A DNA stretch of 64,000 bases, taken from NCBI GenBank assembly GCA_028281665.1, contig JANQJK010000023.1, positions 62,001 to 126,000 of the forward strand. Reading direction: 5' to 3'. Numbering within the stretch: position 1 is the stretch's first letter; the number at the start of each line of letters is the position of its first letter. A program made the position numbers and the translations under genes. The DNA is from Hyphococcus sp. GTDB taxonomy: Bacteria; Pseudomonadota; Alphaproteobacteria; Caulobacterales; Parvularculaceae. Positions 13,844 through 49,456 of the stretch are shown here, in pieces. Under the pieces are notes generated by a model. That model was not told the DNA's origin. It did no database searches and saw nothing but the letters and a program-made list of their open reading frames with translations.

Positions 13844-16057
13844 TTATTCTGTAGCGATTGAAGCACGCTCCTCTCCGGCCGCCATGCCCATGGTACTCCA
13901 TCGATCGTATTGATCTGCATCGATAGGATCGACAGCCTCATTTCCGTTCAACCAATAGTCGAACCATTGGATATTCCGCTTGTACCGAGAATAAACATGT
14001 GCTGGGTGGAAAAACGTATGAAGCTCGTTCGGAAAAACGAACATCTCCATTGGCTTTCCCGCATCATGGAACCGTCTTAAAGCTTCAGACTGCATTGCCG
14101 AGTAGTACTCAGATACTGAGGCTTGAACGAGAATCGGTGCGTCTACGTGATTTGCATTTAACGAAAGTGAAAGGGCTGCCATTCCTATCGTCGGTTGGTC
14201 TTCGATTGGATTAAACATTCCCGCAGCCTTAAGGATATCTGCTCCCAGACTGGGAGCGGGAAGATAGTAAGCAGAGGGATTCCACCGAACCCATGCGAGT
14301 GACGCGGCTGAAAATAAATCAGAATTGATCAAACCATACGCAGCGGGGTTCATTCCATTGCTGAAACCGCATATTCCGACCTTGGATGAATCTATCGTTC
14401 TTTCTGCATCTAACCGACGAACGATTTCCTGAATCAGCTTAAAAGGTGTTGATCCGGCTGGTACTGTCCCGGTGTACTGTGATGTCCAGTAGGTTTTAGA
14501 CATTTGGTCGCGAGATTGCGCGATAGGAAGTGGCGCTGGATCCCATTCGTACAACAGTACCGCTAATCCTTCCGAAGCCATTGCGTGCGTGGGACAGTGG
14601 ACACCGCCGTCCGCTTCTAAGGAATCGGTGAGACCATATCCGTTCACTACAAGTGGAACTGGATCTGATCCGTTGTGATCGGGCGGCAAAAATAGGATTC
14701 CGCGCGCCTGAAATTCGTCGACTGACCAATTTATATACTGAACTCTGCCTTGTCGAAAACCCTTCCAATCAGGGTTTGGATCGACGACAACTTCCGGCTC
14801 GCCGGTCACTAAATGGATTGAAACAAGCTGATTTGTTTGAGTAGGACCCTTTCGAAGGCAATAAAGAAGATCGTTCTTCAAATCACACTTAGAGTACAAG
14901 TCCCTCGTTCTTAGGAGACGCTCTATTGTCTGAGATCCAAAGTTCCAACGGAGAAGGTCAAGTTCATAGCTTTCAGGGTCTCTTGTCCAAAACAAGACGA
15001 ACTGGCCGTCTTCGTCTAACCAAGCTCGCTCAGAGCCAAGACTTAGTATGTATCCCTCGCATTCCGAGAACGAACACTCGATAGTCGAATCACCAGGGCC
15101 GTCGATTAATACTCTCCGCTGGCCACCTCGAATTTGGTCGATGCTTTTCTCGATATCGAGTTCCACGAAGCGAACCCGATACGACGGGACTAAACCCGGT
15201 GGATTTGGAGTGCTGGTTTCACGTGGTTTTGCTGTAAAGGTCCCAACTCTGATTTCCCATTCCAAGGGCCCCTCAGGCAACAGCTCATATATCGGTCGAT
15301 AAGGCTGATGATGCAGATACGACCAACGCGTTTCAGTGTCGACTCGGAACCCAGATCTTGCATCTGCCTCTTGCGTCGAAAGTAGCTCTTCTCTTGTCGC
15401 GTAGGTAGAAAACAGAATTAGGTTTCCGTCATTTGACCATTCAAAATCAATCACATCTCCTTTGCTGAAAGTCACTTGCCGAGATGGCGCGCCATCGACG
15501 AATGATTGCCAAATTTGGACCTGGTCGTCGGTCTGTTTCAAGTACAGAAACGACTCACCCTGGGGTGACCATTTTGGACGTGCCGACCAATTCACCGCAG
15601 GTGAACGTAATCCGCGGGCGTGATTAAGCCTCGTGTTCCAGTCGAAGAGTTCATCTTTCCCTGCATCTCCGACTTCTGACACGAGGCCACCATCAGACAA
15701 ATCGGTTACAAACCATCTACTGTCAAATGAGTTGCTATCGACGTTAGGCTCGTAAGCGATGAAAGCAAGGTGTTTTCCGTTGGGGCTAATTGAAAACCCA
15801 CCAAGCCCGCGCAGCTGAGCGATGGTTGCAGCATTAATATCAATGGTCGCGTCAAAAATTGTTTCGGTTTTTTCAAACCAGCTGTGATTTTTTTGAGGCT
15901 TAAAGTTTGCCGCTGAACCATGTTGAGATATTCCTGCAGATAACAGGATTAGCCAAACTGCGGCTCCGCGAGCTGGACGCCTTACGGCATTCAGCGAGCG
16001 CAAACCAACATTCACTGCAGTATTGAGCGTTGGCTTTAAACCGTAGAACTTGAACAC
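13844..16057 (-). CDS. S9 family serine peptidase, lasso-peptide isopeptidase-like (cargo A)
   Basis: This secreted S9 peptidase has about 737 residues: a hydrophobic signal (GAAVWLILLSAGIS), a propeller with SPNGKHLAF and SPQGESFLYL repeats, and a C-terminal hydrolase. The nucleophile motif is ICGFSNGMN and the histidine lies in FPNELHTFF. The acid position is unclear because SVSEYY stands where D/E-rich motifs are usual. The ending ALRRFHDAGKPMEMFVFPNE..PAH..SRYKRNIQWFDYWL resembles the Atxe2-type lasso peptide isopeptidases known to me, a recollection and not a search. GTG at 16057 is chosen because GGAGG precedes it; the track's TTG at 16084 lacks this. It is noticeably lower in G+C than the sigma and FecR genes. 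Confidence 0.75.
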   Translation of the reverse strand: MFKFYGLKPTLNTAVNVGLRSLNAVRRPARGAAVWLILLSAGISQHGSAANFKPQKNHSWFEKTETIFDATIDINAATIAQLRGLGGFSISPNGKHLAFIAYEPNVDSNSFDSRWFVTDLSDGGLVSEVGDAGKDELFDWNTRLNHARGLRSPAVNWSARPKWSPQGESFLYLKQTDDQVQIWQSFVDGAPSRQVTFSKGDVIDFEWSNDGNLILFSTYATREELLSTQEADARSGFRVDTETRWSYLHHQPYRPIYELLPEGPLEWEIRVGTFTAKPRETSTPNPPGLVPSYRVRFVELDIEKSIDQIRGGQRRVLIDGPGDSTIECSFSECEGYILSLGSERAWLDEDGQFVLFWTRDPESYELDLLRWNFGSQTIERLLRTRDLYSKCDLKNDLLYCLRKGPTQTNQLVSIHLVTGEPEVVVDPNPDWKGFRQGRVQYINWSVDEFQARGILFLPPDHNGSDPVPLVVNGYGLTDSLEADGGVHCPTHAMASEGLAVLLYEWDPAPLPIAQSRDQMSKTYWTSQYTGTVPAGSTPFKLIQEIVRRLDAERTIDSSKVGICGFSNGMNPAAYGLINSDLFSAASLAWVRWNPSAYYLPAPSLGADILKAAGMFNPIEDQPTIGMAALSLSLNANHVDAPILVQASVSEYYSAMQSEALRRFHDAGKPMEMFVFPNELHTFFHPAHVYSRYKRNIQWFDYWLNGNEAVDPIDADQYDRWSTMGMAAGEERASIATE

Positions 16058-16141
16058 GAAACCTCCATACGCGCCAACAGGCAATGCAGTTAGCGATCAT
16101 TTGAATTGCACACGCATTAACCGCAAAAGCGCTTCAAATAA

Positions 16142-18835
16142 CTACCAACTCTTGGTCAGTTGGATTGAGACAAATCTTTCTAGAGGTGACGCGTTAGTGG
16201 GGTCATACGCTGCGATTAGAAATGTAGGATCGCCTGGCGTGCTCGGCGGAGGGGAATCAAATAGGTTTTGAACAGAAACTTGAAGGGAAAGATTCCTGAA
16301 AAAATCAGTCCGGGAGCTCGATCCTAGTTGATACCGAAAATTTAAATCCACGGTAAACCAATCATCAATTCGATCCGATCCTGGAGTCAGATCAACCCGA
16401 TAATCGTTCACGTAGTTAAAAAATAGATTTGCCGCGAGCACTTCGCTTGCATATCCGACAGAGCCTCGTGCGCGAAAATCAACGGGATTGAAAAGTGTGC
16501 TAACTTCATCGACGACAGGTGTTCCGACCGAAGCTTGCTCCGTAAACTTAATTATATAAGTGCCATTCAGCCCTGCACTAAGCGTACCGGAACCGATTTC
16601 TCGGCCGTAATGTACGCCTACATCAATCCCCTGTGATTGCGTCTCGCTAATGTTTGTCAGAACATTAAGCCGACTGATTATACTAATCGTTGCAGGGTCT
16701 ACACCAAATAAATTGGATACCGGCAAATCTAAGTTTGCGAGAGCTTCTTCTATTTCAGCAGTACTTGGGTTAAAGACAATTATCCCTGCTGGGAACAGCT
16801 CAGGGGAATTGAACGCCAAATTCCAAGCGTCTAAAGCGCTTCGTCCTTGTGGAACCGGAGTCTGGTTGAGCCGCCCCTTGAAATTTATGTCGTAAAAATT
16901 CGCTGTTAGTCGGACATTATTTTTGCTGAAAGTCTGATCTATCTCAACGCCGGCGGTGAATGCTCGCGAAGTTTCCGGATCTAATGATGGATCAGTACCC
17001 GAAAGAGACAAAACTGTCGTATCAGCAATCGAGGGATCGCCTGGTGTAAATCCAAAGAAGGAGTTGATTAATGCTGTGGGCAGCAGACTCCCGGTATTGA
17101 ATGAGTTTCCGATGCGCCCAAGCGCTGGCGGCTTGAACGAGGTACTGTATGTCCCTCGCAACTTTACGCCATCTATTGGTTCCCATAAGAGGCCTACTTT
17201 TGGATTCGTTGTAACGCCAAAGTCGCTGAAGTCGGAATGGCGAACTGATGCGTTTATATCAAGCCGATTGATACCACGCACGCCATTGTCGGGGCTAATG
17301 ATAGGAATGTAGATCTCGCCAAAAGCCGCGATGACATCACGATCGATAATTTCGGAGTCGTCCGTAAGTTCTTCAAAACGTAAGTGTCCTCCTACTGCGA
17401 TGCTTACGTCATTCCCGTTAACTGAAAGTATTCGCCCCGAGCTTATCAAGTCAGCAGCCCAGATATTGGAGTCCACCCCAAAGGCAGCGTCACCGAAAGT
17501 GGGGTCGATGGTCTGTATATCATTTGCAATGTTGCTGTAGACGGTAGAAAAGCGAACATCCCAATTTTCTTCAATATCCCAAGTGAGGCCGCCACCAATA
17601 CTGAACCCTTCAGAACTAGCGTTTTGTTGGGTAAGCCGACCGTCACCACGCGTTGTGTCCAAGACAGTTTCGCGACGAGAAAAAAGTAGATCTAAATCGA
17701 GCGAAACGTTGCGTGTTATATCTTGGCTGCCGGCAACAACAACGGAGTTCCGCTCTTGACTAGGAAGTAGATCGAAAGGCAGCATTGCATTGCTCGCAAA
17801 ATCTCGATCCTCCGCCCCAAGATCCGTTTGATTAAGATATTCATATGATGCGACTGCATTTCCAGATTTCCAGGTCAAACCACCCGTTACACTACCGCGA
17901 AACTCTTCGCGGTCTCCGGTGGTCACCGTTCCGTATCTGGTTGAGGCCTCGAGACCTTCGTAGTCATCCCGAAGCACAAAGTTGACCACACCCGCAACCG
18001 CATCCGCGCCGTAGATGGAAGAGGCGCCATCCGAGAGAATTTCAACGCGCTCAATCGCCGAGACCGGAATCATTGAAACATCGACGAATCCGCCGTTATT
18101 TGAAGTGGGAGCAATTCGACGACCATTAAGAAGTGTCAGTGTGCTGCCAGCTCCTAAACCGCGAAGGTTTACACTTGAGCCGAACGTAGAATTGCCCCGC
18201 GAGGAACTGTCGTCGGCGAGACCAAAAGGAATATCCGGGTTGGCGCCGCCCCCAAAGTTTTCTGGAAGAAGCTGCAAAAAGTCATCAATAGTGCCGACGC
18301 CGGAATTCAGAATGTCATTTCGATCAAAAACCCGAGTTGGTGAGCTATCAGGCGCAATGCCGCGGATATTAGTACCAGTAACAATGATCGTATCTCGCTC
18401 TTGTTCATTGTCTTCCGTCGACTCATTTTCTTGAACTAGAGTCACGGAATCGTTTGCTTGATCGACCTGAGCCATTCGAAGAAGGCGCGCTTCGTTCGAT
18501 CGCTCACCTAGGGATGCACTCGCCAACGTGATTGTGTAGGCCCCGTTTGGTGCGTCGGCAGCTTTGAGACCCGACCCGGTGAGGATCTTATCGAGAGCGT
18601 CCTCGGGCTCCATGGAGCCTTTCACGGCTGGCGACGTTTTGCCATCAACGAGATCACCGGACACCATCACGATAACGCCGGCTTGCTCGTTGAATTCCAA
18701 AAGCGCGGATGAAAGCGGTTGGGCTTCAATGTCGAATTCCATCGCCTGCGCCTGGGCCGCGGCGATTGAAATCGCCATCGCCGTGATTGACGCCGCCCCG
18801 GTCAGCGCAAATTTCGAGATTATTGATTTTGTCAT
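16142..18835 (-). CDS. TonB-dependent receptor with STN signalling domain (cargo A)
   Basis: Outer-membrane receptor of about 897 residues. Order: signal peptide ending AAAQAQA, STN domain (FDIEAQPLSSALLEFNEQAG..., residues ~35-110), linker, TonB-box-like DTIIVTGTNIRG, plug (NLRGLGAGSTLTLLNGRR, DGASSIYGADAVAGVVNFVL), 22-strand barrel and a terminal aromatic (TKSW). The STN domain should contact the FecR protein encoded upstream and signal occupancy to the ECF sigma factor. The second ATG of MPTMTK is preferred because the GGAGG abuts the first. From the plug onward G+C drops compared with the signal/STN part. It is closely similar to the receptor at 38906 in plug and barrel, but not in STN. 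Confidence 0.93.
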   Translation of the reverse strand: MTKSIISKFALTGAASITAMAISIAAAQAQAMEFDIEAQPLSSALLEFNEQAGVIVMVSGDLVDGKTSPAVKGSMEPEDALDKILTGSGLKAADAPNGAYTITLASASLGERSNEARLLRMAQVDQANDSVTLVQENESTEDNEQERDTIIVTGTNIRGIAPDSSPTRVFDRNDILNSGVGTIDDFLQLLPENFGGGANPDIPFGLADDSSSRGNSTFGSSVNLRGLGAGSTLTLLNGRRIAPTSNNGGFVDVSMIPVSAIERVEILSDGASSIYGADAVAGVVNFVLRDDYEGLEASTRYGTVTTGDREEFRGSVTGGLTWKSGNAVASYEYLNQTDLGAEDRDFASNAMLPFDLLPSQERNSVVVAGSQDITRNVSLDLDLLFSRRETVLDTTRGDGRLTQQNASSEGFSIGGGLTWDIEENWDVRFSTVYSNIANDIQTIDPTFGDAAFGVDSNIWAADLISSGRILSVNGNDVSIAVGGHLRFEELTDDSEIIDRDVIAAFGEIYIPIISPDNGVRGINRLDINASVRHSDFSDFGVTTNPKVGLLWEPIDGVKLRGTYSTSFKPPALGRIGNSFNTGSLLPTALINSFFGFTPGDPSIADTTVLSLSGTDPSLDPETSRAFTAGVEIDQTFSKNNVRLTANFYDINFKGRLNQTPVPQGRSALDAWNLAFNSPELFPAGIIVFNPSTAEIEEALANLDLPVSNLFGVDPATISIISRLNVLTNISETQSQGIDVGVHYGREIGSGTLSAGLNGTYIIKFTEQASVGTPVVDEVSTLFNPVDFRARGSVGYASEVLAANLFFNYVNDYRVDLTPGSDRIDDWFTVDLNFRYQLGSSSRTDFFRNLSLQVSVQNLFDSPPPSTPGDPTFLIAAYDPTNASPLERFVSIQLTKSW

Positions 18836-19032
18836 TGTCGGCATCCTCCCGCCCGCTATTTCGTCTCAATGCGGACCAAGGCCGTCGGCGCGGCCGATCC
18901 CCTCCCTGGTCTCGGCTCTGTGACGCATGACGTGGCGACGCGTTCCAAAAAAGTTCACAAAAGCTTTACGTTCGCGCTTGCGGGACGGCCAGATCGTAGC
19001 AAAATGCATTGAAAACGCGCGTCTTTGCGGTG

Positions 19033-20079
19033 TCAGGACTTACGTCGCAGAACGATCGGGCCAGCGCCGCTGTCGTCAACTTCGATCGGTTGCACCACTT
19101 CCAGAACTTCCAGCATTTGCGGGATTTCCGAAGTGCGGAAGGCGGTCGTGAGCCTTAAGTCCTCAAGGTCGGACGAGGCGATGCGCAACGGACGTTCGGC
19201 GTACCGATTGACGTCGTCGACAATGACTTTCAGGCGTACATTGTCATAGGCGAGGCGGCCGTCGCGCCAGGCGCCTGGCTCGATATTCTCCAGCGGGGAG
19301 GCGGTCGGGACCGATTGCCGGCGTTCGACAGACACTTGCAATCCGGCGGTGAGCACTTGTTTTTGTGCTTGGCTGTCCGCCGTCGAAGTAAGAGCCTCGT
19401 CTTTCATCACTTCGACGACGCCTTCAAGCACCGCCACATGAACCTGACCAGCGCTGCGCTTGACGTCGAACTTCGTGCCGACGACGCGCACGACGGTATC
19501 GTCAGCTGCGACGTAGAAAGGGCGGCTCGCGTCTTTCGCAACGTCAAAGAAGGCCTCGCCGGTAAGGAGCGTGACGCGTCGGGCGTCGCCTGAAAACGCC
19601 GCAGCGATTTCCGATTTGGCGCCAAGGGTGACAATGGTCCCGTCTTCCAGCGTGATCTCTCGGATTTCTGCGATCGCCGTCGCGAAATCAGGCGTCAACG
19701 CAATCTGGTCGGGCGCGCGCAGGTTCGTCGCATTGATCGCCACCAATGCGAACATGGCGATGGTCGCTGCTGCGCCGCCGAAGGCATAAGCCGGTCTGGC
19801 GAAGGCCGCTTGCAGCCAAGCCATAGCGCGCTCGAAGATCGATGGTTCCGCCGCCGTCAGATCAGCTTTCCGCGCCACATAATCGAAATCGCGCCAGATC
19901 TGTTCGGCTTCCCGGAAGGCCGTGCGATGGGCCGTTGATTGCGCGATCCAGGCCTCAAACCCTTCTCGGGTCTCGGCGCTGAGATCGCCCGCGTGGAGGC
20001 GCACCAGCCATTCGCGCGCTTGGCCCGCGACATCCTCGCTGGTTTCGCTTCCCTTCGACATATGCCGTTCAGTGATCAT
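19033..20079 (-). CDS. FecR-type transmembrane sigma regulator (cargo A)
   Basis: This 348-residue anti-sigma/signal-transfer protein has an N-terminal cytoplasmic domain (VAGQAREWLVRLHAGDLSAETREGFEAW), one membrane segment near residue 100 (GGAAATIAMFALVAI) and a periplasmic FecR domain (LEDGTIVTLGAKSEIAAAF, LTGEAFFDVAKDASRPF). It should relay the state of the receptor's STN domain to the ECF factor. The ATG overlaps the sigma stop by four bases (ATGA), which supports the longer start over the internal MSKGSE. Confidence 0.93.
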   Translation of the reverse strand: MITERHMSKGSETSEDVAGQAREWLVRLHAGDLSAETREGFEAWIAQSTAHRTAFREAEQIWRDFDYVARKADLTAAEPSIFERAMAWLQAAFARPAYAFGGAAATIAMFALVAINATNLRAPDQIALTPDFATAIAEIREITLEDGTIVTLGAKSEIAAAFSGDARRVTLLTGEAFFDVAKDASRPFYVAADDTVVRVVGTKFDVKRSAGQVHVAVLEGVVEVMKDEALTSTADSQAQKQVLTAGLQVSVERRQSVPTASPLENIEPGAWRDGRLAYDNVRLKVIVDDVNRYAERPLRIASSDLEDLRLTTAFRTSEIPQMLEVLEVVQPIEVDDSGAGPIVLRRKS

Positions 20080-20681
20080 CCGCCGCGTTGCTTCTTTCGT
20101 CCGCGCTCGACCGCCTCACCGAGCGCTTCGATCGCCATGGTCATCTGTCGGCTGATATCGCCAGCCGACCAGCCCGTTTCGCGGGAAATCTCCGCATAAC
20201 TTTTGCCTTCAACCCGGTTCATGATCAGAACACGCTGTTGCTTTCGCGGCAGCTTTTGCGCCGCAGCGATCATCAATTCGAACCGGTCTTTCTCCACTAA
20301 GACGCGCTCAGGCGTGATCTCTTCCAATTTTGTTTCGCTGTCGTCAGCGAGAACCGCATCGATATAGGCCGCAGCGTTTTTCGCGCGCCGCTTGTGATCA
20401 AGCACGATGTTGCGCGCCGCCTTATAAACAAAAGCGCGCGGATTTTCGATGTTTTCGGGTGAGGGGAGGCTTGCATATTTGACAAAGGCCGCCTGGACCA
20501 CGTCTTCAGGGTCAGGCGGGCCGGGTCCAAACAGCTTGGCGATCCGCCCGCACATTTCTCTGAAATAGGCGCGATAAAGATCGTCCAGCAGACTTGTCGC
20601 AACGGTTGTATTCGCCGATGCGTTCGCGCCGCCGGATTTTGCGGTCGATTGCTTGACCGTCAGTTCACTCACGAAATCCAA
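20076..20681 (-). CDS. ECF sigma factor, FecI-like (cargo A)
   Basis: RNA polymerase sigma factor of about 201 residues. Sigma-2 is seen as LYRAYFREMCGRIAKLFGPGPPDPEDVVQAAFVKYA and sigma-4 as LPRKQQRVLIMNRVEGKSYAEISRETGWSAGDISRQM. It presumably drives the downstream receptor and peptidase genes when released by FecR. The start is TTG with GGAGG close upstream; GTG nine bases in is the alternative. It is divergent from the isochorismatase-fold gene, with a 387-base gap. Confidence 0.93.
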   Translation of the reverse strand: MDFVSELTVKQSTAKSGGANASANTTVATSLLDDLYRAYFREMCGRIAKLFGPGPPDPEDVVQAAFVKYASLPSPENIENPRAFVYKAARNIVLDHKRRAKNAAAYIDAVLADDSETKLEEITPERVLVEKDRFELMIAAAQKLPRKQQRVLIMNRVEGKSYAEISRETGWSAGDISRQMTMAIEALGEAVERGRKKQRGG

Positions 20682-21068: not shown

Positions 21069-21623
21069 ATGACCAGCGATCCTGAAAGCGAGCCATTGCT
21101 GACGCCTGCGAATTCAGCGCTCGTCTTCATTTGTCCGCAGGCGAAGTTTGCGTCGTCTTTGAACTCTGCCGAGCGGACCGAACTATTTAACCATCTCCTT
21201 GAAATCGCGACGGAGGCACAGTCACTGTCTATCCCCGTGCTGTCCTTTGTCGAATCAACGATGGCGGACCGCAATGCGCTAGACAGCCGACTGCGCGACG
21301 TTATCGACGACCAGGCGGTTCATTTTTCCAGCGCCGCCCATCCGTGGCGCGACGAGGCGTTTGTCGAAAAGCTTAATGAATTCGGTCGACGCCGTTTAAT
21401 CGTCGGCGGATTAACGACCGAAGGCCCGGTTTCATTTGCTGTCTTGAGCGCGCTCGCAGACGGCTTCGCAGTTTATGTGCTGACCGACGGCTGCGCTGGT
21501 GTTTCTGCGTCCGATCATGAAATAGCCCTGGCGCGTATGGCGCAAGCGGGCGCCGTACTCGTATCAACTGCAGGCGTTCGCCATGAATGGGGGGCGGCCG
21601 GCAAGGGCGACGCCGTGACCTGA
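21069..21623 (+). CDS. Isochorismatase-fold protein, apparently inactive (cargo A)
   Basis: 184 residues with the isochorismatase/cysteine-hydrolase layout: ALVFICPQ, then HPWRDEAFVEKL, RRRLIVGGLTTEGPVSF, ALADGFAVYVLTDG and ARMAQAGAVLVS. In active family members the first motif carries Asp, a Lys precedes the W segment and the TE-x-C-V motif carries the nucleophilic Cys. Here these positions read C, no Lys and P, so the usual hydrolase chemistry should be absent. A homologous but shorter protein sits in the same divergent position beside the second sigma factor (36334-36780). This suggests a binding or regulatory role in the receptor system. Function unknown. Confidence 0.75.
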   Translation: MTSDPESEPLLTPANSALVFICPQAKFASSLNSAERTELFNHLLEIATEAQSLSIPVLSFVESTMADRNALDSRLRDVIDDQAVHFSSAAHPWRDEAFVEKLNEFGRRRLIVGGLTTEGPVSFAVLSALADGFAVYVLTDGCAGVSASDHEIALARMAQAGAVLVSTAGVRHEWGAAGKGDAVT

Positions 21624-21744: not shown

Positions 21745-22350
21745 TCATTGTCTTTCTACGGATATATCCCCAGTAGTCTTTCGTGCTGTGTAATACTGTC
21801 CGGTAAGTTTGTCGGGATCGCCGTCGTAATCGAGCTCAAGAAACGCAACGCCTTCATGAGGCGCGCTTCTATGTCGGAACTTGGCCTGCGGTTCGTTCGC
21901 GTAACTATACCAGAGCCGGAAGCGGCGGGTTTCATAAAACGGTTCAAGAAATGTACGCGTCGAGTGCGATGTCGACTCGCCAGTCGTCATGGCGACATGC
22001 GTGGCGAAGAGGGTTTGACGAATCTTGAACTCGACCGGAATTGCCGGCGCGGTTGTCCCCGTATCAGGATTGATCCAAGTCGATTGGAGCTCCCCGCGCC
22101 ATACGCCGTTCAAGTCGGGAAAGGTCCGCAATCCGATCGCTGGGTGCGCTGACCAGACTCGTCGCCATGTGTGATCAAGAACGATGACGCCGGCAGCCGA
22201 CAGCACGCCGACCGATAGCATTATTGTTTTCAATGCGCCCGGACTATCGCCGGACACAAGCGACCATAGCGCGTCAATACTCCATGCAACAGCGACGCCC
22301 GCGGCGACCACCAGCGTCAAGCGCAATTTTTGCGGAAGCAGCGCCCACAT
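21745..22350 (-). CDS. Cap15-like CBASS effector (two TM helices plus beta-barrel)
   Basis: A 201-residue protein with two N-terminal membrane helices (LTLVVAAGVAVAWSIDALW and TIMLSVGVLSAAGVIVL) and a beta-rich domain (FPDLNGVWRGELQS..., ending LTGQYYTARKTTGDISV). This is the plan of Cap15 effectors, whose barrel binds a cyclic nucleotide and whose helices then disrupt the inner membrane. Its ATG overlaps the stop of the CD-NTase by one base (TAATG), so the pair is translationally coupled. No Cap2/Cap3-like accessory gene follows, so it is a minimal type I CBASS. Confidence 0.82.
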   Translation of the reverse strand: MWALLPQKLRLTLVVAAGVAVAWSIDALWSLVSGDSPGALKTIMLSVGVLSAAGVIVLDHTWRRVWSAHPAIGLRTFPDLNGVWRGELQSTWINPDTGTTAPAIPVEFKIRQTLFATHVAMTTGESTSHSTRTFLEPFYETRRFRLWYSYANEPQAKFRHRSAPHEGVAFLELDYDGDPDKLTGQYYTARKTTGDISVERQ

Positions 22351-23417
22351 TAGGCGTCGCCAAGATGGAAAAGCGCCGCATCAAGAAAACGCGCCGCCGT
22401 TTCAAGCCGCCAGGGCTGGCTCGCTGCGAAGAGCGGTTTGATAGCGTTAATTTCGGTCAGCCCTGCGGCTGCCAGCGGCGCATTGACAAGTTCGCGCATG
22501 CGCCTCGTGACTCGACGGACACGGTCATAGGCGTCATCGTTCTCGACGAGAAAATACTGATCCTCAACTGCGTAGACGAGACATTCGATGAAGAAGGAAG
22601 GGATATCGGCTGTAAATATACCGCGTGCCGCCATGTCGGCGCGTAGGCGTTTGACGATCCGCACGACTTTTTTGAAGCGCCGTGCAGTTCGCAGATTTTT
22701 GGTTTTACCGTTCGCGTGATGCTGTTCGGGAAAGTTGAACGTCCAACGTCCGTCGCCGCCGAGAATCGCGACGCCTTCCGAAACGTCGTAACGCCGAAAA
22801 TAATCATTCCACCGGACCTTATTATATTGCACCATGGGAACAACATCGACTTCCGCGCGGCTGCCGGTAATGCCCTTGACTCGGATCGCCTTATTGCCGG
22901 CGTCAATCTTTAGATATCCAAACGCATCGCCTAAAGTCGTCGTCAGGGCTGAACGCATGACGCCAAAAACCTGCGGGTAAGTCTTTCCGCTCGATTGATA
23001 CCCGAGATATTCGCGGGCGGCCGACTGCACGACATTCGGATCGTATTCGACATAGACTGCAGGATAGACGACGCGCAGATCGATATCGGCGTCGATGCGC
23101 ACATTGGTGTTGTTGTGATAAGACCCTTGCGGGCTTACCTGTACGTTTTCGTCTGTAAGCCAATCATTTCGCGCGATGGCGACCCGAACATTTCGTTCGG
23201 CGCGCTCAATCGTGCCTTCCTCGCTGACGCTGGCTGGTTTTTCCCAATGGGCGAAACGCTTGTTCCATTCACTGCGCCGGCGATAGGCTTCGCTGAAGAT
23301 CCCGAGGCCATTGTTGGGCGGCGGGATAAGATTGTCGAAAATGCCCCGGCCCGCGGATGGCGCGCCGCCAAGGAGAATATCGGCCGCCGACAGCGGCTTT
23401 TTGGAGTAATCGGTCAT
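22350..23417 (-). CDS. CBASS CD-NTase (cGAS/DncV-like nucleotidyltransferase)
   Basis: A 355-residue nucleotidyltransferase with the signature GSYHNNTNVRIDADIDLRV (GS followed by DxD) and a third acidic residue in AEVDVVPMV. It is expected to make a cyclic oligonucleotide on phage infection, which the adjacent Cap15-like protein senses. The ORF track runs back to 23825, but the start is placed at the ATG of MTDYSKKPLSAAD, which has a GAAAGAGAT ribosome site. The clade and product cannot be told by eye. Confidence 0.9.
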   Translation of the reverse strand: MTDYSKKPLSAADILLGGAPSAGRGIFDNLIPPPNNGLGIFSEAYRRRSEWNKRFAHWEKPASVSEEGTIERAERNVRVAIARNDWLTDENVQVSPQGSYHNNTNVRIDADIDLRVVYPAVYVEYDPNVVQSAAREYLGYQSSGKTYPQVFGVMRSALTTTLGDAFGYLKIDAGNKAIRVKGITGSRAEVDVVPMVQYNKVRWNDYFRRYDVSEGVAILGGDGRWTFNFPEQHHANGKTKNLRTARRFKKVVRIVKRLRADMAARGIFTADIPSFFIECLVYAVEDQYFLVENDDAYDRVRRVTRRMRELVNAPLAAAGLTEINAIKPLFAASQPWRLETAARFLDAALFHLGDA

Positions 23418-23515
23418 AATATCTCTTTCGCTTGCGGTATTCAGGCCAAATAGGTATTCGGGGGCCGTGCTACAATATCTAGGGGCCGGACCCATTTTCC
23501 CACACAATCCTGCTC

Positions 23516-23556
23516 TTGAATGTTGCCATTTGTCGTTATATATGTCGCCATATGGC
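23516..23556 (+). promoter_or_regulatory. Candidate promoter and operator of RES-Xre operon
   Basis: TTGAAT and TATATG are spaced by 17 bases, followed by the perfect palindrome gccatatggc (23547-23556) just before the ribosome site AGGAG of the antitoxin. Such placement suits autoregulation by the Xre-type antitoxin. The same 150-base gap must also contain the leftward CBASS promoter. Confidence 0.45.
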
Positions 23557-23567
23557 AGGAGATAAAT

Positions 23568-23984
23568 ATGAGCACGCCAGTAGTCATTGAACGGCCCGCG
23601 TCTGACCTTAGCGCCCGCGATCCGGACCGGGTCGCCAGCGTGGCGATCAAGGCCTTTGCGCGCATTGTGGAGGCTTGGGAATTGAAGAACGAGACCGCCG
23701 CGGCGTTGATCGGAGCGAGCGCGCGCACTTGGGCGCGCATGAAAAAAGAGGATTGGACCGGGCGCTTGTCGAAAGATCAGTTGCTGCGGGTGAGCGCGCT
23801 TTCGGGACTCTATAAAGCCCTGCATCTTTATTTTTCAGACACGCTCGCCGACCGCTGGGTCGGACTTGATAATAAAGGCCCGCTTTTCGGCGGACGCTCG
23901 CCCCTCGAAATGATGGAAGAGGGCGGGCTTCCGGCGATGATGGAGACCCGCGATTATGTGGACGCGCTGAGAGGCGGAGCGTGA
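23568..23984 (+). CDS. Xre/MbcA/ParS-family antitoxin
   Basis: This 138-residue antitoxin has an N-terminal helix-turn-helix-like part (AAALIGASARTWARMKK) and a C-terminal toxin-binding part typical of the family (LYKALHLYFSDTLADRWVGLDNKGPLFGGRSPLEMMEEGG). It should bind and silence the RES toxin encoded next and repress the operon. The ATG at 23568 is chosen for its AGGAG site; the track's upstream start extends into the promoter. It overlaps the toxin gene by four bases (GTGA). Confidence 0.9.
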   Translation: MSTPVVIERPASDLSARDPDRVASVAIKAFARIVEAWELKNETAAALIGASARTWARMKKEDWTGRLSKDQLLRVSALSGLYKALHLYFSDTLADRWVGLDNKGPLFGGRSPLEMMEEGGLPAMMETRDYVDALRGGA

Positions 23985-24676
23985 CGGCGCCGGAACTGGC
24001 ACCGGTTTCCCTAATCGAGAAATCCGACACGGTGCGGCTCATCCCGACGGCCTATTACAAGCCGCCGGTGTTAAAGGCGCTGATTGAAGATGACGACGAC
24101 TTGGAAATCCTCGAAGAGATCGAAGGGTTAACTAATCGACGTCTGCGAGCGCAGGCGCGAGGGCTGTCAGGCATGGACGCGCGTGAGTTCGTTTTCGGCG
24201 TGTGGGGTGAAACGCACGTCAATGCGGCGTTCGCTTATACGCGCGCCGAAGGCAATCGTTTTAACGACGCAAGCCGCGGCGCTTGGTATTGCGCATTTGA
24301 CGACTTAACAGCGATTGAGGAAGTCGGATTTCATAAATCGCGGGAACTCGCACGGATCGATTTTTTCGAAGAAAAATGCGTCTATCAAGCGCTGCTCGCT
24401 GGTTTCATTGGCGAGTTTCATGACGTTCGCAACGTTGATCCGGTGCCGGACTTTCTCGCCAAAGACACAGAAGTCGCTTACCCCGCGGGTCAAGCCTTCG
24501 CCGCGGAATTGCGCAGCGCCGGCGCGCGGGGACTTGTCTATCCGTCTGCGCGGCGCGAAGGCGGAACTTGTCTCGTCGCATTTCATCCCGGTCTTGTACA
24601 GAATGTGCGGCCAGGGGCCCGGTGGAAACTCACTTGGGACGGAACGCCCGAATATGCGGTGACGACGGATCCGTGA
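23981..24676 (+). CDS. RES-domain toxin (NAD+-depleting family)
   Basis: This 231-residue RES-family protein has an ART-like fold; characterised members degrade NAD+. Family-like features are the N-terminal RLIPTAYYKPPVL, NRFNDASRGAWYCA with the arginine/tyrosine region, a central acidic position and RSAGARGLVYPSARREGGTCLV (the Ser motif). The start is GTG, overlapping the antitoxin stop. It is followed after 46 bases by the STAND NTPase gene, so the three may be co-transcribed as a defence operon. Confidence 0.88.
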   Translation: MTAPELAPVSLIEKSDTVRLIPTAYYKPPVLKALIEDDDDLEILEEIEGLTNRRLRAQARGLSGMDAREFVFGVWGETHVNAAFAYTRAEGNRFNDASRGAWYCAFDDLTAIEEVGFHKSRELARIDFFEEKCVYQALLAGFIGEFHDVRNVDPVPDFLAKDTEVAYPAGQAFAAELRSAGARGLVYPSARREGGTCLVAFHPGLVQNVRPGARWKLTWDGTPEYAVTTDP

Positions 24677-24722
24677 ACCGGCTCAACAAAAGCGGGATCT
24701 GCCGCATGAATTGAATAATGTG

Positions 24723-27700
24723 ATGTCGAAAATTGAAGATGAAAATTTGGCGCGCGAATTGCGCGAAAAGATCGCAGCGATAGCGGCGACTGGCGCCAAT
24801 GGCTTTGAGGGACTTATCCGCGACGCCTATTATGAAGCAACCGGTGTCCGTCTGCGCCTTCTCAAGTCCGGGCAGCAACAAGGCGCGGACGCGATAGCCG
24901 TTGAAGACAAAAAATCAATATATGCAGCGATTGAGGCGAAACGATACGGTCAAGGCTCCGAATTGTCGCTCGATCATCTCCGTTCAAAACTTGAAAGCGC
25001 GATTGCGCGCCGCGGAAATCCTGTTGAGCTTTGGATATTGGCGGCGAGTCGAGAAGTCAGCGGTGACGACGCAGAAGATTTGATGTCCCTCGGCGCACAA
25101 CGCGGCGTCGCTGTTTTAATCTTGGATTGGGGTGCGGAGGGGGACTTATTGGCGCCGCTTCCCCTCCTTCTTGCGTTAGCGCCGAAAGTTGTTTCCAGCC
25201 GGTTTGATTCTGGTTTCGCGTCGCGCCTTGCGTCGGTGCGGCGCTATCCGGACTTTGACGATCGCGCCGCCGCCCTGAAGCAACGCCTGACGGGCGGCGA
25301 TCTCGGTCTCGTCTATACGGCCGATGTGCTTCATACGGCCTTGGAGAAGGCAATGATGTCTCGGTCCGCTGCGCTCCAGGCGTTTGGGTCGAGCGCAAAT
25401 CTTAAGGACAATAGCAGAATACGGATAAGCCGTCCGTCCATTAGCAAGCGCATCGACGCATGGTGGGAGCACAATGACGCGCCTGTCGGGGTTTGCTTGG
25501 GCGAGGCAGGATACGGAAAGAGCTGGTCGGCTCTCGACTGGATACTCAGCAAACAAGAAAGTGATCAGCGTTCCTTCGTCGCCTGGCTCGCGGCGCGAGA
25601 CCTTAACGGGAAAAGCGTAGCGGATGCAGTGGCCCAAAGCTTGGTCCAATGGCTTCCGGAATTGCGCCGCGATAAAGTATTTTGGCGCCAACGTGTTGAG
25701 CGGTGGCGCGCCGCAGCGAAGAGCGCGGTAGAGACGCTCGACGCCACGGCAGTTCCAGCGCTGACATTGGTCTTGGATGGAGTGAATGAGGGAGACCGAC
25801 AACAAGAGGTCCTGAATGTCCTGCTTAATGCGGTTTCTGACGACTGGAAGGGCGTCGTCAAAATCCTCATCACCGAACGCACGCCGCACTGGCGAGAGGT
25901 ATTCAACGAAGGAAAGGGGTTATCGGCGCACCCTTTCTCCGTCGATGTGGGTCCGTTTAGCGCACATGAGCTAGAAACGTTGCTGTCCGCCCATGAACGC
26001 CGCCTTTCGGATTTTCCGCAATCGGTTCGCGACCTCCTCTGCGTGCCGCGATGGTTCGAGGTCGCGTCCACCCTTTTCGGCGAAAAGATCGACTGGGCGG
26101 CGATGACCCCTGACGGTTTGATGTTTCATTATTGGGCTGTTCGGCTTCGCGACCGCGGCGCCATTTCAGATGTAAGCGCAGACCGATTTCGCAATTTTAT
26201 TGTTAGCCTCGGCCGGACGTTAAAAGCGTCGGACGGCGGTGCAGTATACGGAAGAGATAGTCTTTTGGCGCGTCTTTCCGGGTCGAGCGGTCGCGCGCAG
26301 GAGGAATTCCAGTCAGCGATCGACGATATCGTCGACGGGCATTGGTTTGAAGAGGATCAGTTGGACGCCTTAAGGTTGACGTCTCTTGCGTCACTATTCG
26401 CCATCGGATTGGCGCAACTCGATGATTTGAAACGCTTTGAGACCGACGAAGAAATAGACGAAGCGCTGAGCGCTTTTCTGGGTCCTATCGAAGAGCTTGA
26501 CGAAGGCGTCTCGATTCTAAAGTCGACCGCCGTCCTCGCCTTTTGTGATCACGCCTGCCCGGTTTCTGTTCGCCAAGCGCTCATTCGTCGCTGGAGTCTC
26601 GCCAGAAATTTCAATTCATCAGACTACGAACTCTTTTGGCGGATGGGAATAGAAGCGCCGCAGGCCCATCTTAGGGCAGCAAAAGACGTTTGGATCGCGC
26701 AAACCGGGTCAAGCTTTGTTGACCACCTCTGGGTCGGCGCACTGGCGTCGCTCGCCCAAGAAGGCGGCCAGCGCGACGCTGTCGTAACTTTTCTGACCGA
26801 TGAAATGCGTGTTTATTGGCACGATTCCCATGAAGGGCTCTTCATCGGTTACCATCCCTCGGAAGAGGACGTGGCGGCGCGCACCGTTGAAACGAAGCAA
26901 AAGCTCGCCGAAATCGAGAGGATTGCGGAAGGGGCGGGGCAAGGTCTTCAGTTCAGAGATAATGGCGCTGGGGCCAGTTGGCTGCATTACCGGCTATTCG
27001 CGGTCGCTTCTCACTTGCCGCGCGCAGCTCTAGGACCATTCTTTCGCGCATGGGCTGTATCAAGGGCGGTTATTGGCGGCAGTCACGATTTTGATCTGTT
27101 ATGCTGGTTGCTTCGGGAGAACAGGGTTGATCCGCTGGAAACCGATGAAATGGTCATCGAAACCGCCCGTTTCGTGCGGGCGCTTGGGCATGACCTATTT
27201 GAGGCCCCGTCAGAAAACCTGCTGACTGCCCTTGCTACGCCGACGGCCAACGCGGTCCTTGCCGAATGGGGCACGGAACCCAAAGTGGGACGGTGGTACG
27301 GCCACGAAAATGCAGTGACGGTGATTGACAATGAAATCCGCCGACGACGCGGTGATGATTGCGTTGATCCGAAGATATTCGACATCGCCGCCTTGGCGTT
27401 TGACCCGTCCTTGGCATTGGACCGCGATCTAGAACCACTATTGGATGAAGCGCCTGAAGACTTGGCTCCCGATGCGCTCGGGAACGGTCGTTTTACGACA
27501 GCAGCCGATATAGAGCGAGAACGATCGGGGCCGGCGTGGGCGCGATGGCGTTCCGCATGGTTTGCCGATCTGCATCGAACATATGTGAATTCCGCGCCGG
27601 ACCGAACCGGAGAGGCTCAACGCGGCGTCTCTTTCGATATTCACGAGCTTGTTGTGCTTTTGTCTGAGAATACCAAAGATCGATTGGCGAACATGTTGCC

Positions 27701-29171
27701 CGCCATGGCCCCAAACAAAAGCGATAATTGGTTCGTACTCTATCGTTTTTGGGCCGCGGCGCTTTTTGATCGTCCGGCGCAGGAGCAAATTGAAATTTGG
27801 CGTAAGATCCCGCCAATTGCCGCCGTGCCTTATAGCCTCGACGGCGTGCTGCGTACCCCTTCTATCCGCCTTGCAGAGCCGATCTGGTTGACAATATTGA
27901 ATTCTGACGAAACGGATGAACAAGTATTTTGGCTCTGTTATATGTTGATGAGCAGAGCGCCACTGTGCGGACGATGGAAGGAAACGATCGACAATTGCCT
28001 TCAGTCTGACTGCGCGACGGTTCGCGAGCTTGTGCTTCTTATTGCGCTCGAACACGACGAAGGATCAATTGCGGCGGGCGAGCGATTATATGCTCGGGGA
28101 TGGACGGCAAGTGCTGAGCAATCAGACCGCGAACGCCGTCTCGGATCTGATGCTCTTGTATCCCTCGCTCAAAAATATCCCTTAGAGGATTTGCTGGCGC
28201 GGATTGACAAGGCTCATGGACCAACATTGTGGCGCGCTGCTGGATTCCCGGATGAACATTGCGGGCTTATATTCGATTTGTTGAACGATGCGTTGCGCGA
28301 TCCATTGGCGCCGTTTCGCGGCCGATCTAAACCCGAGGCGTTCGCGGAGGGATTAAGGACTCTTTACAACCGCGACCCGAAAATGGTCCGGCGATTCGGC
28401 GAGCAACTTTTTGAAGCGCCGCCGGAATATGTCTACCGAGCGTTGCCCTGGCCGCACAGAGCGATGCTTCGGCTTTTTCTGGAAACGGAGCCGGACTTTG
28501 CTGTTGGGCTAATTGATCGTTTGCCTTCCGCAACAAAGAATGCGTTTTCATACGACCTTCGACAATTGAGTCTTTCCGCTCCAGATCATGCCATAGCCGA
28601 CCGACTCCGCCGCGAGGCGTTGAAAACTCTGGTCACTGATTGGGACATTGAAGAGTTTGCCGCTGACATTGTCGCCCATGGCCGGGAGGCCTGGGCTGCA
28701 AAAATAATCCGGGAAGATGTATCATCATTCGCGCCGGCTGGAACATGCGCGCGGGCGATGATGCTCGCAGGTTTTCTGGCCTCCTTGCCGGCCGTTGCCG
28801 AAATCTGGGAGAACGAGTTGGCGCAAGCGCCGGCAGAGGGCTGGCTAACCGTCGTTTACAAGGAAGCCGCTTGGCGCGCGCGTCGCGCACGGGCTAACGC
28901 CTTTTGGTGGCAAAAAGCGACGAATGCTGAATCAGACGAGGCGTTTTTCTGCGCCATGTTTCTGTTCGACGAAACCCTTGACTGGCCGCAATGGCGTCTC
29001 GCCGGTCGCGTTCTTCGGGCAAGCAGAGACGACGTAACGCCGCGATATTTGTCAGCTATTGATCTGGCTTGGGATGACTTTAAGCAACGGGTGGATCGGC
29101 GGAAAACAAAGCGCGATCGTCGCCTGTACGCCGAAAACACTGGTCCAAAATCAATGATGCCGTGGGCCTAA
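24723..29171 (+). CDS. PD-(D/E)XK nuclease-STAND NTPase, Avs-like candidate defence protein
   Basis: A 1482-residue protein. Residues ~20-150 look like a PD-(D/E)XK nuclease: NGFEGLIRDAYYEATG, GADAIAV (Asp) and AAIEAKRYG (ExK). Around residue 270 is Walker A (GEAGYGKSW), then Walker B in LTLVLDGVNEGD and ILITERTP after it, as in STAND NTPases. The remaining ~1000 residues are helix-rich with no recognised domain and would be the sensor. The order effector-NTPase-sensor is that of Avs-type antiphage proteins. The ATG at 24723 is preferred to the track's TTG 12 bases upstream. It lies between RES-Xre and ardA. Exact family not settled. Confidence 0.75.
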   Translation: MSKIEDENLARELREKIAAIAATGANGFEGLIRDAYYEATGVRLRLLKSGQQQGADAIAVEDKKSIYAAIEAKRYGQGSELSLDHLRSKLESAIARRGNPVELWILAASREVSGDDAEDLMSLGAQRGVAVLILDWGAEGDLLAPLPLLLALAPKVVSSRFDSGFASRLASVRRYPDFDDRAAALKQRLTGGDLGLVYTADVLHTALEKAMMSRSAALQAFGSSANLKDNSRIRISRPSISKRIDAWWEHNDAPVGVCLGEAGYGKSWSALDWILSKQESDQRSFVAWLAARDLNGKSVADAVAQSLVQWLPELRRDKVFWRQRVERWRAAAKSAVETLDATAVPALTLVLDGVNEGDRQQEVLNVLLNAVSDDWKGVVKILITERTPHWREVFNEGKGLSAHPFSVDVGPFSAHELETLLSAHERRLSDFPQSVRDLLCVPRWFEVASTLFGEKIDWAAMTPDGLMFHYWAVRLRDRGAISDVSADRFRNFIVSLGRTLKASDGGAVYGRDSLLARLSGSSGRAQEEFQSAIDDIVDGHWFEEDQLDALRLTSLASLFAIGLAQLDDLKRFETDEEIDEALSAFLGPIEELDEGVSILKSTAVLAFCDHACPVSVRQALIRRWSLARNFNSSDYELFWRMGIEAPQAHLRAAKDVWIAQTGSSFVDHLWVGALASLAQEGGQRDAVVTFLTDEMRVYWHDSHEGLFIGYHPSEEDVAARTVETKQKLAEIERIAEGAGQGLQFRDNGAGASWLHYRLFAVASHLPRAALGPFFRAWAVSRAVIGGSHDFDLLCWLLRENRVDPLETDEMVIETARFVRALGHDLFEAPSENLLTALATPTANAVLAEWGTEPKVGRWYGHENAVTVIDNEIRRRRGDDCVDPKIFDIAALAFDPSLALDRDLEPLLDEAPEDLAPDALGNGRFTTAADIERERSGPAWARWRSAWFADLHRTYVNSAPDRTGEAQRGVSFDIHELVVLLSENTKDRLANMLPAMAPNKSDNWFVLYRFWAAALFDRPAQEQIEIWRKIPPIAAVPYSLDGVLRTPSIRLAEPIWLTILNSDETDEQVFWLCYMLMSRAPLCGRWKETIDNCLQSDCATVRELVLLIALEHDEGSIAAGERLYARGWTASAEQSDRERRLGSDALVSLAQKYPLEDLLARIDKAHGPTLWRAAGFPDEHCGLIFDLLNDALRDPLAPFRGRSKPEAFAEGLRTLYNRDPKMVRRFGEQLFEAPPEYVYRALPWPHRAMLRLFLETEPDFAVGLIDRLPSATKNAFSYDLRQLSLSAPDHAIADRLRREALKTLVTDWDIEEFAADIVAHGREAWAAKIIREDVSSFAPAGTCARAMMLAGFLASLPAVAEIWENELAQAPAEGWLTVVYKEAAWRARRARANAFWWQKATNAESDEAFFCAMFLFDETLDWPQWRLAGRVLRASRDDVTPRYLSAIDLAWDDFKQRVDRRKTKRDRRLYAENTGPKSMMPWA

Positions 29172-29503
29172 ACCCAGAAAATTTGCTTAAGTGTAATCGA
29201 CGATTAGTGAGCAGACGCATCGCTCCGTCCCTGGCGCGGCCGGCCCCGTTGGGGCCGGAGAACCGGACGCCGCCCTACGGGCGGCGGCTTTTTGGGTGTT
29301 TTTTCCCTTCGGGCGGGGGCGGGAGCGGACGGTGAGCCGCCAGCGGTCGGCGCGCAACGCCTTTGGCTCCAAGTCCATCTAAATTTTCTTTCTTCTCCTA
29401 CCAAAAACATTGCCCGCCGCCCTGCAAGCTGGCGGCTCTTGTGTCCGCTCTCACCGCCCCCGCCCGTGCGGGAAAAAACGGCGAAGGCGAGGAGGAGCGA
29501 GCC
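29172..29503. other. Intergenic region with terminator before ardA
   Basis: 332 bases. It contains two G+C-rich hairpins, the second with a T-tract (29268-29293), and presumably the ardA promoter. No gene is seen. Confidence 0.5.
29268..29293 (+). terminator. Intrinsic terminator downstream of STAND gene
   Basis: The stem cgccgccc / gggcggcg has a tac loop and is followed by gc and ttttt. It lies 97 bases after the STAND stop and separates it from ardA. Confidence 0.65.
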
Positions 29504-30151
29504 ATGACGATCAGTACACAAACAACCAGCGACAGCGCCGGCGGAGAGGTCGGAGGCGCGCGCGGCGAGGGCGCGAACGCAGGCGCAGACGCAACCCTAA
29601 GCGCAGGCGCGCACGCCAGCGCAAGCGACGACATGAGAGACGGGCCGCGCGTCTACGCGGCCTGCCTTGCCGCTTATAATAACGGCATACTGCATGGGTG
29701 CTGGATCGACGCGGCGCAAGAACCCGAAGACATTTGGCGGGAAATTTCCGCGATGCTTAGCGCTTCGCCGATCCCAAACGCGGAGGAGCACGCCTTTCAT
29801 GATTTCGAAGGCTTTGGCAAAGCGGACATTCCCGAATATGCAGGCGTTGACACAATCGCACGGCTGGCGGCCTTCATCGTTGAGCGCGGCGAGGATTTGG
29901 GCGGCGGCGTCCTTGAACATTTTGGCGGCGACATCGACGACGCCGAAGCGGCGTTCGAGGACTATGCGGGCGAATGGAAAAGCCTCGCCGAATTCGCGCA
30001 GGACGTCACCGAAGATAGCGGCGTTGAGATTCCCAAGCCCCTCGAATACTACATCGACTGGCAGGCCATGGGCCGCGACATGGAAATGTCAGGCGATATC
30101 TTCACGGTAGAGACGGGATTTGAAGAAATTTACGTCTTCTGGTCACGCTAA
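29504..30151 (+). CDS. ardA: ArdA family antirestriction protein
   Basis: A 215-residue acidic protein that mimics DNA and blocks type I restriction enzymes when a mobile element enters a host. The ArdA core begins near residue 48 (PRVYAACLAAYNNGILHGCWIDA) and ends with FTVETGFEEIYVFWSR. It carries an additional low-complexity Ala/Gly-rich N-terminus of about 45 residues. The ATG at 29504 is preceded by GGAGGAG. Typical ICE or plasmid cargo, here directly after defence genes. Confidence 0.92.
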   Translation: MTISTQTTSDSAGGEVGGARGEGANAGADATLSAGAHASASDDMRDGPRVYAACLAAYNNGILHGCWIDAAQEPEDIWREISAMLSASPIPNAEEHAFHDFEGFGKADIPEYAGVDTIARLAAFIVERGEDLGGGVLEHFGGDIDDAEAAFEDYAGEWKSLAEFAQDVTEDSGVEIPKPLEYYIDWQAMGRDMEMSGDIFTVETGFEEIYVFWSR

Positions 30152-31534: not shown

Positions 31535-31861
31535 ATGGTTCAAGCCCTAGGATATGTGACGAAACAGGAAAACGGTTACGAAGGCACGCTCTCAATGCTG
31601 ACGCTCAAGACCCGGATCAGGATCGTTCCGAATACGGCGAAAGAAAACGAGCGCCAGCCGGACTACCGCGTCTATGCGGGCGACGGCGAAATCGGCGGCG
31701 CCTGGAAGCGGATCGGCAAGGCGAGCGGCAAGCCTTACGTGTCGCTGACGCTTGCGCACCCGGCCTTCCCGGACGGGCGGAAAATCTACGCCAATCTCGG
31801 CCGCGCCGCCGGTCAGGACGATGAAAGCGTCCTCGCGATCTTGTGGTCGCCGGCGACTTAA
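31535..31861 (+). CDS. DUF736 family protein
   Basis: A 108-residue protein of the DUF736 family (ENGYEGTLSMLTLKTRIRIVPN, PDYRVYAGDGEIGGAWKR, GKPYVSLTLAHPAFPDG), small beta-rich proteins of unknown role found in many alphaproteobacterial conjugative elements. GGAGACGG precedes the ATG. A second member occurs at 50098, and the two are only moderately similar. Confidence 0.85.
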   Translation: MVQALGYVTKQENGYEGTLSMLTLKTRIRIVPNTAKENERQPDYRVYAGDGEIGGAWKRIGKASGKPYVSLTLAHPAFPDGRKIYANLGRAAGQDDESVLAILWSPAT

Positions 31862-33276: not shown

Positions 33277-33727
33277 AGTCGTCTACATTGAGGCGCGCGT
33301 CAACTGCTGGCTCAAGTTCGGCGAGATTTCCGATCGCGTCGTAGTCGACAGATGCCGCATGTTGGCGTTCATCGAAGCGGGCGAGATGTTCGCCTATGTG
33401 CGGTGGTTCGCCAATGAATACGGCACGCAGCATTGGAGCGCCTACGTTCTGAAAGCGCGTAGCGCCGGCGCGCGCGCAGCGCGTATTCCGGGGGTTCATC
33501 CGGGCGGCGAACTTTTGTGTGTTTTTAAGGGTGCGGCGCTCGTCAAACGGTTCTTGGCCTTGGCGGATGGGCTGGAAGGGCGGGGGATCAGGTTGCCCAA
33601 GCTTTCGGAAGACTACTGGCGGCAATGCCATTTGCGGCTTCCGCTTCGCATGAAGCCGAATCCGGTTTCAGCGCAAGACGTAAGCGTCGCCGCGGTGCGA
33701 TGCAAAGCGCGCGTCTCAAATGCGTAG
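33260..33727 (+). CDS. DUF2840 domain protein
   Basis: A 155-residue DUF2840 protein (VNCWLKFGEISDRVVVDRCRMLAFIEAGEMFAYVRWFANEYGT, PGVHPGGELLCVFKGAALVKRFL, DYWRQCHLRL). Function unknown; the family is confined to conjugative elements and is regularly placed before traF. The start overlaps the AlpA-like gene and the end overlaps traF by 8 bases, so the genes are coupled. Confidence 0.82.
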   Translation: MMTGIEVVYIEARVNCWLKFGEISDRVVVDRCRMLAFIEAGEMFAYVRWFANEYGTQHWSAYVLKARSAGARAARIPGVHPGGELLCVFKGAALVKRFLALADGLEGRGIRLPKLSEDYWRQCHLRLPLRMKPNPVSAQDVSVAAVRCKARVSNA

Positions 33728-49455: not shown

Positions 49456-49456
49456 C

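Follow-up and report, generated by a model that had tools for sequence, protein, structure and literature searches.

The locus and its integrated mobile element

The window, as the whole stretch of 64,000 nucleotides analysed here is called, carries at 21069–21623 (forward strand) a gene for a protein of 184 aa, w1, which profile searches, alignment and a structure model identify as a catalytically inactivated YcaC-like isochorismatase-fold protein. Divergent from it, across a gap of about 390 bp, lies a gene for an ECF sigma factor of the FecI type (20076–20681, reverse strand), placed opposite w1 as a preliminary description of this DNA had stated. Also on the reverse strand are a FecR anti-sigma regulator with DUF4880 and FecR domains (19033–20079), a TonB-dependent receptor with an STN signalling domain (16142–18844) and an S9 peptidase resembling the Atxe2-type lasso peptide isopeptidases (13844–16057), which scored 394.7 bits against model NF033523 over 633 of 638 positions, the cut-off being 400. 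The combination that marks an Atxe2-type operon, namely sigma and anti-sigma factors, a TonB transporter and an isopeptidase, is thus found together opposite w1. Among the ORFs examined near this operon, no lasso precursor or B/C biosynthesis gene was recognised. Next to the operon (13844–20681) lie a prolyl oligopeptidase gene (11071–13218) and an M24 aminopeptidase gene (9753–11006), and the operon with its peptidases is perhaps a peptide-scavenging locus.

A second, shorter degenerate isochorismatase-like protein of 148 aa, w2, is encoded at 36334–36780 on the reverse strand and belongs to a clade termed Sho below. It is faced by a second module on the forward strand, which comprises an ECF sigma factor (37166–37702), a FecR protein (37702–38769), a TonB receptor (38906–41623) and an S9 peptidase (41638–44298).

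Both degenerate genes and both sigma modules are located within an integrative conjugative element (ICE) of about 43.5 kb at 9202–52748. Homology of the window to a close relative (G001) ends at 9201 and restarts at 52749; the element is absent from that relative, in which the HAD gene (window 7655–9091) and dusA (window 52743–53726) directly adjoin. A tyrosine integrase (51492–52616, reverse strand) adjoins dusA. The ICE block, read forward, includes the anti-restriction protein ArdA (29441–30151), a DUF736 protein (31535–31822), an FseA-like regulator with PF20109 and PF10074 (32064–32894), which we take to be the FseA domain pair, a TraF-type S26 peptidase (33720–34232) and an RlxS-type relaxase (DUF3363; 34418–36337) that matched its model at 695 bits over nearly full length, against a narrow cut-off of 850. 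TraG and trb genes, including trbB, also lie inside the element. With RlxS, TraF, DUF736, the FseA-like regulator, TraG and trb in an integrated element absent from the corresponding site of G001, the window ICE belongs to the ICEMlSymR7A-like elements, the core of which consists of rlxS, traF, trb, DUF736 and fseA (PMC8627217). No exact repeat of 14 bases that could mark an integration site (att) was present, and a search with word size 7 returned only chance-level matches. The trb set looks truncated, with a short TrbE-like ORF at 48741–49526 and no later trb genes seen, so that, judging from gene order, the window ICE may have lost its own transfer.

Genes for a CBASS system, for an Xre-RES pair and for a protein of NACHT type are located between w1 and ArdA. 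The CBASS pair, a Cap15-type 2TM effector and a CD-NTase cyclase (21745–23825, reverse strand), adjoins the Xre-RES toxin-antitoxin pair, the two together spanning 21745–24676; the start listed for the cyclase ORF is probably too early. Between the RES toxin and ArdA, a protein of 1486 aa (24711–29171) weakly matches NACHT/NPHP3 P-loop models and may have a nuclease-like N-terminus. It had no match in PADLOC, and is perhaps a defence protein. On another ICE, a Gabija pair (GajA/GajB, L304:7424–11766) lies between the degenerate isochorismatase gene and ArdA. A role of w1 as a CBASS part was considered and rejected, as no PADLOC model has such a component and other members of the group have no adjoining CBASS.

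Fold and lost active site of w1

The protein w1 matches the isochorismatase profile PF00857 with an E-value of 5.8e-18 and a score of 66 bits, where the cut-off is 27, and its sequence matches among solved structures were 1yac and 4wgf. A single-chain AlphaFold2 model with a mean pLDDT of 90.5 and a pTM of 0.87 shows the alpha/beta/alpha fold, and its best Foldseek matches were 4wgf (TMq 0.83) and 1yac (TMq 0.87), both YcaC. Membership of the isochorismatase superfamily by fold is thereby established, and the preliminary description, which had placed this fold at the ORF now confirmed and had proposed comparing a predicted structure with YcaC, is borne out. Membership of the YcaC cysteine hydrolases does not follow: the corresponding model (NF041461) gave 7e-19 and 68.1 bits, under its equivalog cut-off of 310, and the Asp-Arg/Lys-Cys triad is missing.

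To examine the loss of this triad, w1 was aligned with 126 homologues of the active type taken from the loci analysed; one extra row (L071) was left out as a degenerate member. The catalytic Asp column holds Asp in 126/126 homologues and Cys22 in w1; the third catalytic column holds Arg or Lys in all 126 and Ser87 in w1; and the nucleophile column holds Cys in 123 and Ser in three, with Pro120 in w1. The entire triad is present in 123 of the 126. The preliminary description had reported the loss of Asp (Cys in FICPQ), Lys and Cys (Pro in TEGPV); the loss itself stands, and the naming of Lys needs correction, since the triad of YcaC is Asp19-Arg84-Cys118 (PMC4519933). With Arg84 as the middle residue, the proper test for w1 is the absence of Arg or Lys at this position, and it has neither there. 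Among the 23 columns that are at least 85% conserved, 15 are kept in w1 and eight are lost. The lost columns take in all three catalytic positions and Asn91, a residue near the active site that is 92% conserved among homologues and replaced by His in w1, so that the loss is concentrated at the active site. In YcaC hydrolases the active site lies between the chains of an oligomer; the conserved Trp93 is present in w1 and in every Sho member. Besides Cys22, the only cysteine is Cys142, and the lysines are at 26, 101 and 179; an Asp-Lys-Cys triad re-formed elsewhere in w1, which would have contradicted the earlier reading, is unlikely from sequence and predicted secondary structure. With its acid, basic residue and nucleophile all gone, w1 is predicted from sequence to be a protein that cannot act as a normal hydrolase of its family. 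The 15 retained columns and the confident YcaC-like model agree with the earlier view of a fold kept without catalysis.

Other degenerate copies and clades

At least 19 further degenerate isochorismatase-fold genes were found in the same bacterial order, giving at least 20 with w1. In w2 the N-terminal part that bears the Asp is missing and Phe replaces the Cys; a single-sequence structure model of this protein reached a pLDDT of 46 and was set aside. A third copy in the same genome, apparently truncated, is on contig C28 (G000:C28), where a third sigma-FecR-TonB-S9 unit lies about 2.6 kb away. Eight sequences of about 135–150 aa form the Sho clade, in which the Trp of an APPW motif is kept. 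A further clade, Lon, has 11 members found, eight of them in the tree, which are about 155–185 aa long when complete, share the motif GxLLEGAVTQ and have Ala in place of Cys. In the tree, Sho (support 97/96) and Lon (100/100) are each monophyletic on a long stem. Grouping of w1 with Sho or Lon received a support of 17/76, and neither clade has w1 as a supported neighbour. Among three close Lon genes (G005, G022, G025), dN/dS is about 0.16–0.23, which indicates purifying selection on the Lon clade; the estimate applies to Lon, the one set close enough, w1 having no close relative. Truncated copies occur as well, namely a Lon fragment in G304, G000:C28 and G031, and several Lon copies are truncated.

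The distribution of these genes was followed by profile searches. The Lon profile, run against genome contigs, returned seven close members only, which belong to Marinicaulis, Parvularcula(ceae), Hyphomonas and other Alphaproteobacteria. In a class-wide search with the Sho profile, all matches besides w1 and w2 sit in open frames of about 185–730 aa; these look like full-length ordinary hydrolases, and the family therefore looks restricted to the order. In a search of plasmids for relatives, w2 had no match and w1 matched ordinary hydrolases only, and the queries L013 and L015 gave scattered weak matches of isochorismatase/YcaC type, none above 60% identity and few covering most of the query.

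Two side observations concern individual members. An isochorismatase on an RlxS-ICE contig (L300:9178–9963, G109) keeps Asp and Arg and has Ser for Cys, and possibly represents an early stage of the same triad loss. In addition, GC-rich hairpins occur about 100–120 bases ahead of the start codon of three sigma-facing Sho genes (36780–37165, L013:5133–5525 and L077:5263–5784); their energies are only 1.4–2.8 SD below those of shuffled sequences, and a leader or terminator is possible.

A recurrent position at the edge of the ICE block

The surroundings of the degenerate genes were annotated with profiles for ArdA, ArdC, ParB, DUF736, FseA-like proteins (DUF6499), TraF, RlxS, sigma, FecR, TonB and S9 peptidase. 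In 13 of 13 assessable ICEs, the degenerate gene lies outside the block ArdA/ArdC-ParB-DUF736-FseA-like-TraF-RlxS, is codirectional with it and reads toward it (window w1, L013, L077, L078, L081, L169, L170, L171, L172, L173, L174, L177 and L304). A sign test gives p = 2.4e-4 for these 13, relatedness ignored. Some of the contigs or stretches stop short of RlxS (e.g., L171, L177 and L304), and the block is seen there in part; G018 and G031 were left out of the count because their contigs are too short. Five members are off this slot: w2, G000:C28, G129, G160 and G142a, the last lying 26 kb outside a slot copy on the same contig. The slot is held even where the gene has no sigma neighbour (L078, L081, L173, L174, L177 and L304), and it is ICE genes rather than sigma genes that neighbour the degenerate genes most constantly. 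The place beside ArdA/ArdC, which an anti-defence protein of the leading region would occupy, is taken in 13 ICEs. Leading regions of conjugative DNA are known for an enrichment of anti-defence genes, according to a passage in PMC11602122 that cites Samuel and Burstein.

For comparison, 43 RlxS loci that carry no degenerate gene and extend at least 15 kb upstream were hand-picked from the relaxase list as a non-random control set. With 0/43 of the sampled RlxS ICEs carrying it, most such elements are without the degenerate gene, which is therefore not core. A module that combines an S9 peptidase with FecR or with genes for lasso biosynthesis lies beside 6/12 ICEs that have the gene (the window, i.e. 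G000, G020, G007, G278, G005 and G022) and beside none of the 43 that do not (Fisher p 3e-5). For FecR alone the figures are 5/12 and 4/43 (p 0.017), the four gene-free elements being L240, L262, L264 and L265. Shared ancestry is ignored in all these counts. Co-occurrence with a sigma gene is not constant, as six of the 12 gene-bearing ICEs with enough flank have no sigma-FecR-S9 or lasso module. The degenerate gene is thus linked beyond chance with a type of peptide-uptake cargo, which half of the gene-bearing ICEs do not have.

The arrangement of gene and module varies. The gene is divergent from the sigma gene at a distance of about 390–520 bp in four loci (w1, w2, G020 and G007), and no ORF obviously common to these four gaps, as a small peptide gene would be, was seen. 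In G278 it lies downstream of the peptidase, and in G022 lasso genes separate it from the sigma-FecR-TonB-S9 module. The G022 ICE carries a complete lasso cluster of the isopeptidase type, in which sigma-FecR-TonB-S9 is joined by Transglut_core3 and Asn_synthase proteins. In this genome (L172 and L279; Lon gene L183, Marinicaulis flavus), PhyH and AraC genes lie between the lasso cluster and the degenerate isochorismatase. The genome of the window contains six FecR loci; three have an S9 peptidase and each of these is near a degenerate isochorismatase, and the three others are without.

Possible roles of the degenerate protein

Given these results, the role that we favour, at roughly even confidence and largely from genomic position, is that of a non-catalytic protein that binds a ligand or partner in the service of its ICE. 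This preference follows from neighbours that are mostly ICE genes and from a local sigma unit already complete with FecR and an STN-domain receptor. The protein is carried on an RlxS-type, ICEMlSymR7A-like element as one of at least 20 degenerate proteins, mostly encoded at one slot, and would bind without hydrolysis; its service to the element could lie in establishment, in defence or counter-defence, or in the regulation of these. The FecI-FecR-TonB-peptidase modules of the lasso-isopeptidase type would be frequent cargo docked at the slot edge, which is our proposal for why a sigma gene adjoins w1, and a functional tie of the degenerate gene to the module is possible in ICEs that have one. 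The earlier suggestion of binding rather than chemistry holds for the loss of catalysis and the retained fold, and binding itself is a reasonable reading of the conserved frames and motifs and of the Lon dN/dS of about 0.16–0.23. A more specific version seems quite unlikely, though worth stating: nicotinamidases are isochorismatase relatives, and the dead proteins might form a new ICE-borne class of counter-defence or defence-tuning factors. These would bind a small signalling or cofactor-derived molecule, or a partner protein, without hydrolysing it, shielding the incoming element or restraining its own CBASS or Gabija, the site having been lost repeatedly under the same pressure.

The position of w2 and the C28 copy, off the slot and still near sigma-FecR-TonB-S9 modules, speaks against a role defined by the ICE slot, and the enrichment of S9 modules (6/12 against 0/43) also fits a role tied to the module. 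As the main rival reading, the degenerate protein might be an accessory of the peptide-uptake module. In the cytoplasm it would bind a peptide product brought in by import, or another small ligand, and tune the module, with which alone it would travel on ICEs. The complete lasso cluster in the G022 ICE and the coincidence of three degenerate genes with exactly three S9-bearing FecR loci in one genome are in its favour. We regard it as possible but doubtful, considering that six ICEs have the gene and no such module, that the gene-module arrangement is not fixed and that the constant set of published isopeptidase clusters includes no such protein (PMC9266682). The preliminary description had gone further and proposed a cytoplasmic sensor or anti-sigma helper acting on the adjacent ECF sigma factor or the FecR N-domain. 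Its link to FecI/FecR survives in the module counts, and the divergent placement in four loci and the kept fold with lost catalysis agree with it. As a general role, however, the helper is very unlikely: a sigma gene is missing from the neighbourhood of about half of the members and the 13 assessable ICEs hold the slot instead, the unit opposite w1 is already equipped with FecR (DUF4880) and the STN-domain receptor, and FecR systems do without the gene both at the three other loci of the genome and in the four gene-free ICEs.

Two further explanations concern the protein itself. It could be a decaying passenger, once a YcaC-type hydrolase, that is carried on mobile DNA with its function fading and no present role, as the truncated copies, the fast sequence divergence and the long stems might suggest. 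Against this stand the diversification of two monophyletic dead clades with frame and motifs kept (GxLLEGAVTQ in Lon, APPW in Sho), a Lon dN/dS of about 0.2, and the retained columns and confident fold model of w1, which leave decay only a slim chance. An altered enzyme is exceedingly improbable. Cys22, perhaps with Lys26, would run a different reaction from the loop after strand 1, beside the old active site, and some Cys-less family members are active, e.g., PhzD with Asp-Lys-Gly (PMC5353710); w1, however, lacks the Asp, an Arg or Lys at 87 and a Cys on the nucleophile helix, and neither Cys22 nor Lys26 is common to Sho or Lon.

Comparison with known systems and significance

Pseudoenzymes are mostly spotted singly. 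The present set has at least 20 members, with two or more dead clades among them, and most occupy a single position in conjugative elements of a widespread family, with anti-restriction genes on one side and cargo on the other. The recurrence of the slot makes them candidates, open to testing, for a function of ICEs that has so far gone unrecognised. ICEs also prove, unexpectedly, to be linked with modules for lasso-peptide uptake; the purpose of these modules is still termed enigmatic (PMC9266682). In the literature searched, nothing on point was found for isochorismatase together with ICEs, pseudoenzymes or FecR, nor any order-restricted set of at least 20 dead isochorismatase-fold genes at a recurrent ICE slot, and the word isochorismatase is absent from the text of PMC8627217.

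Among known proteins, YcaC (1yac, 4wgf, NF041461) is the best match to w1 in sequence and structure, sharing its fold, length and most core residues. It differs in the triad Asp19-Arg84-Cys118, for which w1 has Cys, Ser and Pro, and in the model score (68 against 310 bits). Relatives of this fold without the nucleophilic Cys are already known in kind, as PhzD-type isochorismatases lack it and PhzD itself has D38-K122-G155 (PMC5353710). The natural loss of Cys in the same fold is thus common to both; unlike PhzD, which keeps Asp and Lys, w1 is also without the acid and the basic residue.

The surroundings of w1 likewise combine familiar and divergent features. Published isopeptidase clusters have a constant set of GntR regulator, precursor, isopeptidase, TonB transporter and sigma/anti-sigma factors (PMC9266682). 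The operon opposite w1 resembles Atxe2-type clusters in its sigma factor, FecR, TonB receptor and Atxe2-like isopeptidase, but has an isochorismatase-fold gene in place of the lasso biosynthesis genes, none of which were seen around it in the window. Similarly, the window element shares RlxS, TraF, DUF736, FseA-like domains, TraG, trbB and an integrase with ICEMlSymR7A-like ICEs, and is distinguished from them by its place in a Parvularculaceae-type genome, beside dusA, and by the degenerate isochorismatase genes that it carries.
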